Shown here: one piece after another, positions 49,356 through 56,816 of the stretch
Numbering within the stretch: the stretch's first letter is position 1
How the letters are laid out: each line of letters opens with the position of its first letter
NCBI RefSeq assembly: GCF_900095135.1
Contig: NZ_LT605205.1
Span: 1,488,001 to 1,552,000 of the forward strand
Direction: 5' to 3'
Length of the DNA stretch: 64,000 bases
Source of the DNA: Proteiniphilum saccharofermentans
Lineage (GTDB): Bacteria > Bacteroidota > Bacteroidia > Bacteroidales > Dysgonomonadaceae
Position numbers and translations under genes: made by a program
The notes under the pieces: generated by a model
Databases searched by the model: none
Told to the model about the DNA's origin: nothing
The model's input: only the letters and a program-made list of their open reading frames with translations

Positions 49356-52300
49356 ATGAAAAAGCATATTCTGGGTTTAGATCTGGGTACCAACAGTATT
49401 GGATGGGCATTGGTGGAGGTTGATGAAAACAATAAACCATGCAGTATAGAAGGTATGGGAAGTCGGATTATACCAATGAGTCAGGATATATTGGGAAATT
49501 TTGAAAGTGGAAATTCTATTTCACAAACAGCAGAAAGAACTGCTTATCGCGGAACAAGAAGATTGCGTGAGCGTCATTTGTTGCGTAGGGAACGTTTGCA
49601 TAGAGTGCTGAATGTGTTAGGCTTTTTGCCTGAACATTATATGAATCAGATTGATTTTGAGAAACACTTGGGGAAATTCTTTACTGACCTAGAACCTAAA
49701 TTGGCTTGGAAAGAAAATGCGAATGGAAAATATGAATTTATTTTTCAGTCTTCGTTCAATGAAATGGTCTCCGAATTCAAAAAAGCTCAACCTTATTTAT
49801 TTGAAAACGGAAAGTTGATTCCTTATGATTGGACTATTTACTATTTGCGTAAAAAAGCCTTATCTCAAAAAATAAAAAAAGAAGAATTGGCTTGGATTTT
49901 ATTGAATTTTAATCAGAAACGGGGTTATTATCAGTTGCGTGATGAGGTGGACGAAGAAAATCCAAACAAATTAGTTGAATTCCATTCGTTGAAAGTGATT
50001 GATGTCGTGCCGGACGAAAGTGCTAATAGCAAAGGCGAAACATGGTATTCTCTTCATTTGGAAAATGGTTGGATTTATCGGCGTTCGAGTAAAACACCTC
50101 TTTTTGATTGGAAAGATAAAGTCCGTGATTTTATTGTCACGACAGATTTAAATGATGATGGTACGATAAAAACCGATAAAGAGGGTAATGTCAGGCGTTC
50201 GTTTCGGGCACCGGCGGAAGATGATTGGACTTTATTAAAAAAGAAAACCGAAGCAGACATTGATAAAAGCAAGAAAACTGTCGGAACATACATTTATGAT
50301 GCTTTGTTGGAAAATCCATCACAAAAAATAAAAGGGAAATTAGTACGCACCATCGAACGGAAGTTTTACAAAGAAGAACTGAAACAGATTCTTCAAAAAC
50401 AACAGGAGTTTCATCCCGAATTACAGGATGAGGATTTGTATAACGAGGCTGTTCGTGAGTTGTATCGTAGCAATGAATCCCATCAACTCGCTCTTGGTAA
50501 AAGAGACTTCACGCATCTTTTTTTGGAAGATATTATTTTCTATCAACGTCCGTTGCGAAGCAAAAAATCGTCCATTGGGAATTGTTCGTTGGAATATAGG
50601 AAGTACCGTGATAAGGAAGGAGTGGAACATATCGAATACTTGAAAGCGGCGCCTAAGTCAAATCCTTATTACCAGGAATTCCGTTTGTGGCAATGGCTCT
50701 ATAATTTAACTATTTACAGGAGGAATGACGATACGAATGTAACCCAAGAATTCTTGAACAGCGTGGAAGATTATGAGACTTTGTTTGATTTTCTGGATAA
50801 CAGAAAGGAAATTAGGCAAGACACGTTGATAAAGTTCCTGTTGGAGCAAAAAGGTTTTAAGGGAAAAATGTTGGCTAACGAAGCATCAAAATATCGTTGG
50901 AACTTTGTGGATGACAAGGAAAAAGTATATCCATGTAACGAAACAAAAGCTTTGATTGTATCCCGGCTGGCGAAAGTTGAAAACCTGCCTGACGGTTTCT
51001 TGAAAAGGGAAACTGAACAACAACTCTGGCATATTATCTACTCCGTTACTGACAAGGATGAATACGAAAAAGCATTGAAATCGTTTGCCGAAAGACATGG
51101 ATTGGATGTAGCATCATTTGTGGAAAATTTTAAAAAGTTTCCGCCTTTCAAAAGCGAATATGGTTCATTCTCGGAAAAAGCCATTAAAAAATTATTGCCT
51201 TTGATACGGACTGGAAAGTACTGGGATTGGGGGAAAATTGACGAAAGTACGAAAAAACGTATTGATAAAATTATAACAGGAGAGTATGATGAAAATATAA
51301 AAGAGAGAGTCCGGGAGAAAGCCATTCATTTGAAAGAAGAGGGATATTTTCAAGGCTTGCAACTTTGGTTGGCAAGTTATATCGTTTATGGTCGCCATTC
51401 CGAGCCAGGCATTGCCGGAAAATGGAATTCTGTCAATGATTTGGAAAAGTACCTGCATGAATTCAAACAACACTCATTGCGTAATCCGATTGTCGAACAA
51501 ATTGTTACCGAAGCATTGAGAGTGATAAGAGATATTTGGGCGCATTATGGTAACGGAGTGAAAGATTTCTTTTCGGAAATTCATATCGAGTTAGGCCGGC
51601 AAATGAAACTACCTGCCGAAGACCGGAAAAAATTAAGCGATCAAGTGCTCGAAAACGAAAAAACAAACCTTCGTATCAAAGCCTTACTTGCAGAAATGTT
51701 GCATTATCCGGAAGTGGAAAACGTGCGGCCATACTCACCTATGCAACAAGAAGCCCTGAAAATATTTGAAGATGGAGTGTTAAGTTCTAATATCGAAATA
51801 GACGATGATATCCTTAAAATAAGTAAGACCGCTCAACCTTCTTCCTCGGAATTAAGACGCTATAAATTATGGTTAGAGCAAAAATACCGATCTCCGTATA
51901 CCGGGCAAGTCATTCCTTTGAACAGATTATTTACTGCCGATTACGAGATAGAGCACATCATTCCACAAAGCCGTTATTTCGATGATAGTTTCAACAATAA
52001 AGTGATATGTGAGTCGGCTGTCAATAAACTGAAAGACAATCAGACCAGTTTTGAGTTTATAAAAAACCACCATAGCGAAATCGTTGAAGTAGGTTTTGGC
52101 AAAACGGTCAGAATTTTTGAAGAAGAAGAGTATCAAAAATTCGTGAAAGAACATTATGCGAAAAATCGCTCCAAACGGAATAAATTATTGATGGATGAAA
52201 TTCCTGAGAAAATGATTGATCGCCAGATGAATGACACACGTTATATCAGTAAGTTTATTTCTTCCGTTTTATCCAATATTGTTCGTTCGGAAACAAATGA

Positions 52301-56483: not shown

Positions 56484-56816
56484 ATGAATCGACTAAGCGA
56501 ATATAGAATTATGTGGGTACTCGTATTTTTTGACCTGCCGACGGAGACGAAGAAAGATCGTAAGGTCTATACCGTTTTTAGGGATAAACTGATCAAAGAC
56601 GGTTTTACCATGTTTCAGTTTTCCATCTATTTACGACATTGTGCCAGCCGTGAAAACGCCGATGTGCATATTCAACGTGTGAAAAACAATCTTCCACCAC
56701 ATGGGCAAGTCGGCATCCTGTGTATTACCGATAAGCAATTTGGCAACATGGAATTGTTTATCGGAAAAAAAGAAAAAGAAGTAACCACGCCCTACCAGCA
56801 ATTAGAACTGTTTTAG
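56484..56816 (+). CDS. cas2: CRISPR integrase subunit Cas2
   Basis: A 110-residue ferredoxin-fold protein that dimerises between two Cas1 dimers during spacer integration. It begins [20 protein letters not shown], with the conserved first beta-strand Asp, and continues with [20 protein letters not shown] and [18 protein letters not shown]. Length and order match type II Cas2. It is the last gene of the operon. The array begins 109 bp later. Confidence 0.96.

Follow-up and report, generated by a model that had tools for sequence, protein, structure and literature searches.

Within a 64,000-nucleotide (nt) stretch of the single-contig genome of Proteiniphilum saccharofermentans (4,414,963 bases), a CRISPR–Cas locus of II-C layout carries a small intact gene of the DUF6155 family between cas9 and cas1. 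We refer to this whole stretch as the window and number coordinates along it; its cas region spans 49356–56816 (Table 1). Two of the three extra genes embedded in the operon, a UPF0158 gene and a HIRAN gene, are broken, and the third, DUF6155, recurs where effector genes meet adaptation genes in unrelated CRISPR systems and is probably a selected, repeatedly recruited gene. We favour, at a probability of roughly 0.6 for the reading as a whole, a II-C-layout locus with accessory cargo at its module junctions, DUF6155 being a selected recurrent gene.

The window protein matches the DUF6155 profile at 91.4 bits against a cut-off of 27. Among type II loci (L and G numbers are our handles for loci and genomes), the gene lies between cas9 and cas1 in the window, L020, L033, L062, L157, L158, L168 (at a contig edge) and L232. 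It adjoins cas1 directly in the window, in L157 and L158 (15 nt) and in L168; other cargo separates it from cas1 in L020, L033, L062 and L232, and L153 carries it 5′ of cas9. In type I loci, DUF6155 follows cas3 and precedes cas4-cas1 (L164 and L239, and with additional cargo L167 and L162) or stands directly after cas3 where the contig ends (L159). The type I effectors beside it are of the I-B Cst type (L162) and the PGING type (L164), both with Cas1b. Wherever its whole length is visible in a type II locus, the gene is intact (8 of 8). UPF0158 is the neighbour of DUF6155 not only in the window but also in L162, a type I locus, and, off cas genes, in L160, L237 and L238. A conserved cas9-UPF0158-DUF6155-cas1-HIRAN-cas2 unit was rejected, as none of the loci examined has all three extras.

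Proximity to cas1 was then quantified in 120 relatives and 393 genomes of the order Bacteroidales (cas1 positions in some genomes came from the type II model only). We found 53 DUF6155 copies in 51 genomes (17 in the relatives and 42 in the order set, 8 shared), and 9 of the 53 lie within 10 kb of cas1, against 0.27 expected (P 4e-12). Reading the neighbourhoods added G045, directly after cas3 at a contig end, and G399, between cas3 and cas4 with the cas1 genes on other contigs. This brings the number in or against cas operons to 11 of 53: five at the cas9/cas1 junction of type II, four at the cas3/cas4 junction of I-B or PGING systems, one directly after cas3 and one 5′ of cas9. HIRAN is moderately enriched (6 of 59 copies in 57 genomes within 10 kb of cas1; expected 0.31, P 6e-7), with further copies beside cas9 (G047, G219), 1.6 kb from an array (G066) and, in G167, just outside the limit at ~10.4 kb. 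UPF0158 is weakly enriched (3 of 38 copies in 37 genomes; expected 0.11, P 2e-4), its three copies being those of the window, G065 and G302, the last directly 5′ of cas4-cas1.

As a control we used the defence-island gene RhuM in the same 120 genomes, where 2 of 150 listed places, counted by hand and including gene fragments, are near cas1. DUF6155 exceeded this rate clearly (8 of 17, p 8e-8; without the window 7 of 16, p 6e-7). HIRAN did so marginally (3 of 15, p 0.006; without the window 2 of 14, p 0.04), and UPF0158 failed to do so (2 of 15, p 0.04; without the window 1 of 14, p 0.24). The enrichment by which the initial annotation had proposed to judge the three genes is present for DUF6155 and HIRAN and weak for UPF0158. 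The same annotation would have called them chance passengers if they stood beside cas genes only in this strain; for DUF6155 this does not hold, given the 11 of 53 copies above and its presence in 3 of 80 loci selected through Cas1. The control search also turned up RhuM genes close beside cas1 at G041:C20:27515-28276 and G075:C52:2469-3230.

The CRISPR-linked copies in our tree belong to one lineage. Our DUF6155 tree holds 44 of 56 copies (the 53 plus three Cas1-selected ones). The 12 left out are G066, which is CRISPR-linked and cut by a contig end, and 11 others, of which 10 (L246–L255) show no recognised cas gene and the eleventh, G418, comes from a genome with no cas1. A single clade of 19 rows (support 92/89) contains all 13 that are CRISPR-linked. 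With the three Cas1-selected rows set aside, 10 of 16 clade members are CRISPR-linked compared with 0 of 25 rows outside it, where 14 of the 25 were judged unlinked from cas1 positions alone (Fisher 7e-6). Among the six unlinked clade members, L166 and L238 have known conflict genes next to them, a TOTE primase-helicase and a GmrSD protein respectively, and L156 lies near genes for ribosomal proteins (by eye). Rows of both CRISPR types are mixed within the clade: the II-C group, together with its two unlinked rows, has L164 (PGING) as its sister (99/98), and the type II row L153 is paired with L208, which is G399 (I-B), at support 100/99. In the window's group of six loci, DUF6155 is 77–94% identical and Cas1 68–91%, and Cas9 is only 23–30% identical in 11 of 15 pairs.

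DUF6155 is mobile relative to its neighbours. Placing the 7 loci that carry DUF6155 on a tree of 84 Cas1 proteins takes 5 changes, and well-supported branches force at least 4 of these; shuffled labels gave a mean of 6.8 changes and a value as low in 6 of 500 trials. This scatter, together with Cas9s only 23–30% alike, indicates that DUF6155 has been gained or lost repeatedly, and we rejected the idea that it stays with Cas1 while Cas9 is exchanged. Co-inheritance with cas1, the mark of an adaptation factor, was likewise absent from this tree. L033 groups there with L062, and L020 with L017; between L020 and L033, DUF6155 has a synonymous divergence (dS) of 0.7, and that of cas1 is saturated, so DUF6155 has moved between junctions and recurs there. 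Between L157 and L158, which share the junction and have Cas9s 89% and Cas1s 91% identical, the ratio of nonsynonymous to synonymous divergence (dN/dS) is ~0.065 for DUF6155 and 0.071 for cas1. Because this pair shares junction, Cas9 and Cas1, purifying selection probably acted in place. L020–L033 gave a DUF6155 dN/dS of 0.075, and dS was above 1 or saturated in the other 13 pairs. A phage origin of the clade was rejected: tblastn against viral_contigs (453 pattern matches) found no relative of it, one phage record matched at 43%, and PHROGs gave 0 matches for DUF6155. Nine plasmid records matched at 24–44%; in the three contexts read, one of them beside RhuM and Fic genes, no cas genes were listed in the ~10-kb stretch.

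The other two extras tell a different story. The UPF0158 gene is split over two frames: when three UPF0158 proteins (those of L162, L160 and L238) were aligned with the window, each fell into two pieces, one per frame. For HIRAN, the informative comparison is L012, whose cas1-cas2 gap holds two intact genes side by side, encoding a 268-amino-acid (aa) J-domain protein, whose DnaJ match of 3.2e-6 falls slightly short of the curated cut-off, and a 130-aa HIRAN protein. The window retains residues 2–69 of the former and 64–130 of the latter, in different frames; relative to the intact pair, ~262 codons (~790 nt) are lost. The window's HIRAN is thus a deletion remnant in which the beginning of a J-domain gene is joined, out of frame, to the last part of a HIRAN gene. 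A loss of ~790 nt is hardly an assembly error. The HIRAN frame contains no open reading frame (ORF) of at least 60 aa starting with ATG, GTG or TTG, and covers only positions 28–94 of the 96-position profile, so an intact HIRAN gene in the window was rejected in favour of a truncated, out-of-frame remnant behind a J-domain piece. The initial annotation had described three embedded genes. Sequence of all three does sit where it was placed and DUF6155 is intact, yet UPF0158 and HIRAN are not open reading frames, which makes that description an overstatement for this genome.

Embedded cargo is common in related loci. We examined the best 80 of 590 Cas1 relatives (one-genome-per-species contigs; 65–80% identity over the best segment) and found an embedded ORF of at least 100 aa in 24, lying between cas9 and cas1 in 20 and between cas1 and cas2 in 4; one gap each went uncovered in L006, L016 and L028, where the cas9 end was not found, and in L004 and L063, where cas2 was not found. 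Embedded ORFs lie on the cas strand in 32 of 33 cases (sign test 8e-9), the exception running over masked bases. Scanned cargo representatives include RhuM, Bro-N, YhcG nuclease, Schlafen-AlbA_2, AAA ATPase, HNH, HU and 23S-IVP proteins, along with Y1/REP-transposase-like cargo identified mainly by eye (with a weak Pfam match for L009 and none for L223 or L232). Six kinds are common to type II and type I operons: DUF6155, UPF0158, HIRAN, PRiA4, 23S-IVP and Y1-transposase-like. In tblastn searches of the best 80 loci with the window pieces, HIRAN was near cas genes in two (L012, and L002 ~0.3 kb 5′ of cas9) and UPF0158 in none.

Several other proteins recurred around cas operons in these surveys. 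A SWIM-domain protein of ~590 aa lies near cas4 in type I loci (L162:7410-9170, L235:2299-4011, L239:9784-11553 and L301:600-1044, the last in fragments). PRiA4 ORF-3-like proteins occur in cas operons of types I and II (L232:8110-9153 and L164:3488-4111 by Pfam; L222:10555-12549 and L162:15993-16613 by BLAST or by eye). Type I locus L223 has a 23S-IVP gene between cas1 and cas2 (Pfam) and a similar one between cas4 and cas1 (by eye), at 2798-3163 and 4357-4737.

The same sample shows the pattern expected of Cas9 exchange. Across the 72 loci with full cas9, mean Cas1 identity to the window was 69.7% in the 24 loci with Cas9 at 45% or above and 70.2% in the 48 loci with Cas9 below 45%; these equal means leave Cas9 identity uncoupled from Cas1 identity. 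In situ Cas9 shuffling beside related cas1 has been reported for Flavobacteriales (PMC12669027), with the same junction and the same discordance between Cas9 and Cas1 identity as here; the text on shuffling in that paper, as far as it was available, does not mention junction cargo genes, unlike the loci around the window.

HIRAN domains bind DNA 3′ ends. Intact copies near cas genes occur in two settings. One comprises J-domain plus HIRAN pairs (L012, L157), the sort to which the window's remnant belongs. In L012 the pair sits in the cas1-cas2 gap, in L136/L157 behind cas2; in one set of 11 such pairs, only L136 (G042) is near cas genes, and the remaining 10 have no cas1 within 10 kb on their contig. 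In the other setting, HIRAN lies 5′ of cas9 (L170, L179, L261), 5′ of cas12a (L262) or at the head of a type I operon (L257, L274), and a WYL/WCX-type regulator precedes it in L170 (Pfam) and in L262 and L257 (by eye). Of nine HIRAN genes close to an array or to cas genes, six (G047, G100, G219, G334, G372, G448) occupy this 5′ position or type I operon head, a placement, sometimes beside a regulator, that suggests regulation. The regulator-HIRAN arrangement in L262, L170 and L257 is perhaps a regulatory unit common to three effector types. Literature searches for HIRAN with CRISPR gave, among the matches listed, none on cas operons by title; adding cas1 gave Cas9, Cas12 and Cas13 papers and reviews among the matches listed. 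Searches for UPF0158 gave nothing related, and pRiA4b with CRISPR nothing relevant, among the matches listed. The main text of PMC10910872 contains no HIRAN, DnaJ, UPF0158 or 'Bacteroid-', and its 'DUF' passages gave DUF3800 only.

The DUF6155 protein itself is predicted to be all-helical: the best AlphaFold2 model has nine helices and a mean predicted local distance difference test score (pLDDT) of 82, resting on 4 close sequences, with the other four models at 53–63. The model yielded no Foldseek match at E 0.001 or better against the Protein Data Bank (PDB) or viral models, and PF19652 was the sole Pfam match at E up to 1, with no PIN domain. The model shows no recognised fold or active site. 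Our literature search returned no paper naming DUF6155 and no CRISPR link described there.

Taken together, these observations suggest how such a locus may form. In a II-C-layout Bacteroidales locus, the cas9/cas1 and cas1/cas2 junctions hold embedded accessory genes, taking up varied genes in the cas direction; with that orientation the operon stays readable. Uptake probably occurs during the recombination that also exchanges Cas9. Most cargo turns over, and here UPF0158 and the J-domain/HIRAN pair are already broken. DUF6155 differs from this cargo in degree: one clade of it recurs at the effector/adaptation boundary, cas9/cas1 in II-C and cas3/cas4-cas1 in I-B and PGING type I systems. DUF6155 is most likely a co-transcribed, selected accessory gene that uses the cas operon's expression, and we infer that it would work as its own small defence or defence-regulating unit, spreading between defence operons and not as an obligate partner of Cas9 or Cas1. 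Its movement between junctions, its association with two Cas1 families and the neighbours of its unlinked clade members favour such a general defence role over a Cas1-only partnership.

Much of the same evidence could be read as neutral passage, with the effector/adaptation junction a tolerated landing or recombination site and the three genes its debris. Two of them are indeed broken, and 24 of 80 relatives hold varied cargo, some of it broken as well; Cas9 and Cas1 identities are uncoupled, and DUF6155 comes and goes on the Cas1 tree. Against this stand the intact gene in every type II locus seen whole, the dN/dS of 0.065 in L157–L158, and a single clade at corresponding junctions of unrelated systems, near cas1 far more often than RhuM; we judge neutral passage unlikely. 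A different proposal makes DUF6155 an adaptation helper that binds or regulates Cas1–Cas2 or Cas4–Cas1–Cas2 and influences how systems of class 1 and class 2 alike acquire spacers. It could then be a type-independent, non-catalytic helical accessory, recruited to the effector/adaptation boundary of class 1 (I-B, PGING) and class 2 (II-C) and acting on a shared step, spacer acquisition or its control, which we regard as a slim prospect. If true, effector-unrelated systems would share one non-catalytic helical acquisition-step protein. The gene lies directly 5′ of cas1 in the window, L157 and L158 and 5′ of cas4-cas1 in type I loci, and it stands beside effectors as different as Cas9s at 23–30% identity and Cst- and Csp-type Cascades, so the effector is not the common factor. 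However, other genes intervene before cas1 in four of the type II loci named above and before cas4 in L162 and L167, the L153 copy is 5′ of cas9, two Cas1 families (type II and Cas1b) are involved, and 6 of 16 clade members have no cas1 nearby. Nor is DUF6155 co-inherited with Cas1, being scattered on its tree, and the L020 and L033 copies are closer than their cas1 genes. The Cas1 tree lowered our estimate for an adaptation helper, which we now consider rather improbable, and slightly raised that for neutral passengers.

The initial annotation had also suggested that HIRAN would suit prespacer handling, and one might extend this to HIRAN and the J-domain protein together handling DNA ends for spacer acquisition. 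The 6 of 59 copies near cas1 and the intact pairs in L012 and L136/L157 are what such a role would have in its favour. The window's domain is truncated and out of frame, 10 of 11 J-domain plus HIRAN pairs are not near cas1, and intact copies are variously placed, often 5′ of the effector (6 of 9 there or at a type I head), which leaves prespacer handling here without support and the wider idea very improbable. Several observations also weigh against our favoured reading of selected cargo. DUF6155 occurs in only 3 of the best 80 loci by tblastn with window pieces (L020, L033, L062), and the window's nearest Cas1 rows (L005, L009) and sister group (L002–L004, L006–L008) lack it, so II-C does not need DUF6155. 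None of the 25 rows outside the clade is CRISPR-linked, and the gene is broken or shortened in 2 of 5 type I loci (L162, L167). Broken cargo elsewhere, for example Bro-N in L067 and L031 and RhuM in L061 (by eye), is as expected for passengers, and the UPF0158 frame break could be an assembly error. The clean in situ selection test comprises one pair, L157–L158, and because DUF6155 is mobile, low dN between distant loci may reflect selection elsewhere. The enrichment P values are too small, since the 10-kb null supposes that genes are placed at random, one control family (RhuM) was used and related genomes were treated as independent. The structural model, as noted, draws on few sequences.

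Profile matches and coordinates bear out the gene order and spacings first described for cas9, DUF6155, cas1 and cas2. All genes are on the + strand, in the order cas9, UPF0158 region, DUF6155, cas1, HIRAN region and cas2, followed by the 39-repeat array (repeats counted with at most 6 mismatches each); spacings of 82, 4, −4, 8 and 7 nt hold when the UPF0158 and HIRAN regions are measured end to end across frames, and the operon's spacing is consistent with a single transcript. Neither csn2 (II-A) nor cas4 (II-B) was matched among the window proteins scanned, cas9 through cas2, which with cas9, cas1, cas2 and an array fits the II-C layout, as first described, with the type assigned by gene content. 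Just 5′ of cas9 lies a candidate anti-repeat of a trans-activating CRISPR RNA (tracrRNA), the sole site outside 56800–60100 with at least 19 of 24 matches when both window strands were scanned; Rfam gave no family in the window at gathering scores.

Table 1. Features of the CRISPR–Cas locus, numbered along the window.
Feature	Position	Strand	Evidence
Candidate tracrRNA anti-repeat	49226..49249	+	20/24 positions match reverse complement of repeat
cas9, 1510 aa, type II	49356..53888	+	TIGR01865 1.3e-121; HNH_4, RuvC_III, bridge helix
Broken UPF0158 gene, first part, one of two frames	53971..54315	+	N-terminal parts of UPF0158 proteins from L162, L160, L238 align; no UPF0158 profile match alone
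Broken UPF0158 gene, second part, other frame, stop-to-stop limits	54206..54607	+	PF03682 5.9e-7; C-terminal parts of L162, L160, L238 proteins align
DUF6155 gene, 175 aa, intact	54612..55139	+	PF19652 7.4e-26; 4-nt overlap with cas1
cas1, 311 aa, type II	55136..56071	+	TIGR03639 5.1e-94
Remnant, 5′ end of J-domain (DnaJ-like) gene	56080..56286	+	63% identity to residues 2-69 of 268-aa L012:7187-7993
Remnant, 3′ end of HIRAN gene, other frame than J-domain piece, stop-to-stop limits	56228..56476	+	PF08797 6e-14, profile 28-94 of 96; 82% identity to residues 64-130 of L012:7996-8388
cas2, 110 aa	56484..56816	+	TIGR01573 8e-20, PF09827 4.4e-18
CRISPR array, 39 repeats of 47 nt, 38 different spacers of 29-30 nt	56926..59893	.	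Repeat search; direct-repeat family D1

Right behind the array, at 59907-60569 on the − strand, a HicA toxin-like gene (PF07927, 60342-60569) is accompanied by a 136-aa gene in the HicB place, the latter with no significant Pfam match. Close by, an IS1595-family transposase gene (60635-61588) lies inside 35-nt inverted repeats that are 80% complementary (60498-61604). The same genome has a second CRISPR locus (L231, G000:C1:2210000-2225500) of type I, with cas3-cas4-cas1-cas2 directly adjacent and cargo-free there and an array of at least 50 repeat copies.

No part of CRISPR loci has been explored less than their accessory genes, and DUF6155, found at corresponding boundaries of unrelated CRISPR types, is a concrete and readily tested candidate for a defence or helper gene that has escaped recognition. 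Cargo at effector/adaptation junctions offers a simple route to more of them, with 24 of 80 loci carrying some.

Both embedding and II-C accessory factors are known themes. A 2024 preprint by Payne et al. (10.1101/2024.01.29.577857) reportedly described 'guilt-by-embedding' of defence genes in other immune operons. Our loci resemble that pattern in that unrelated small genes sit inside a defence operon, and several match PADLOC models: the HIRAN piece PDC-M03B (3.8e-8), the L162 SWIM protein PDC-S62, YhcG PDC-S02 and Bro-N PDC-S13. Unlike those candidates, DUF6155 and the UPF0158 pieces match no PADLOC v2 family, and the window's DUF6155 protein is, by profile, a member of PF19652. Embedding of defence genes in other immune operons also appears in the parts seen of PMC12255303, PMC12988326 and PMC10855318. 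PcrIIC1 and pro-CRISPR factors, as described in the portions seen of PMC13153721 and PMC12669027, are accessory genes of II-C loci, and DUF6155 resembles PcrIIC1 in being such a gene within a II-C locus. In those portions, PcrIIC1 is a PIN-domain protein that binds the C-terminal helix of Cas9, whereas DUF6155 has no PIN match and is predicted to be all-helical; and DUF6155, unlike PcrIIC1 as described there, stands beside unrelated Cas9s and in type I loci.

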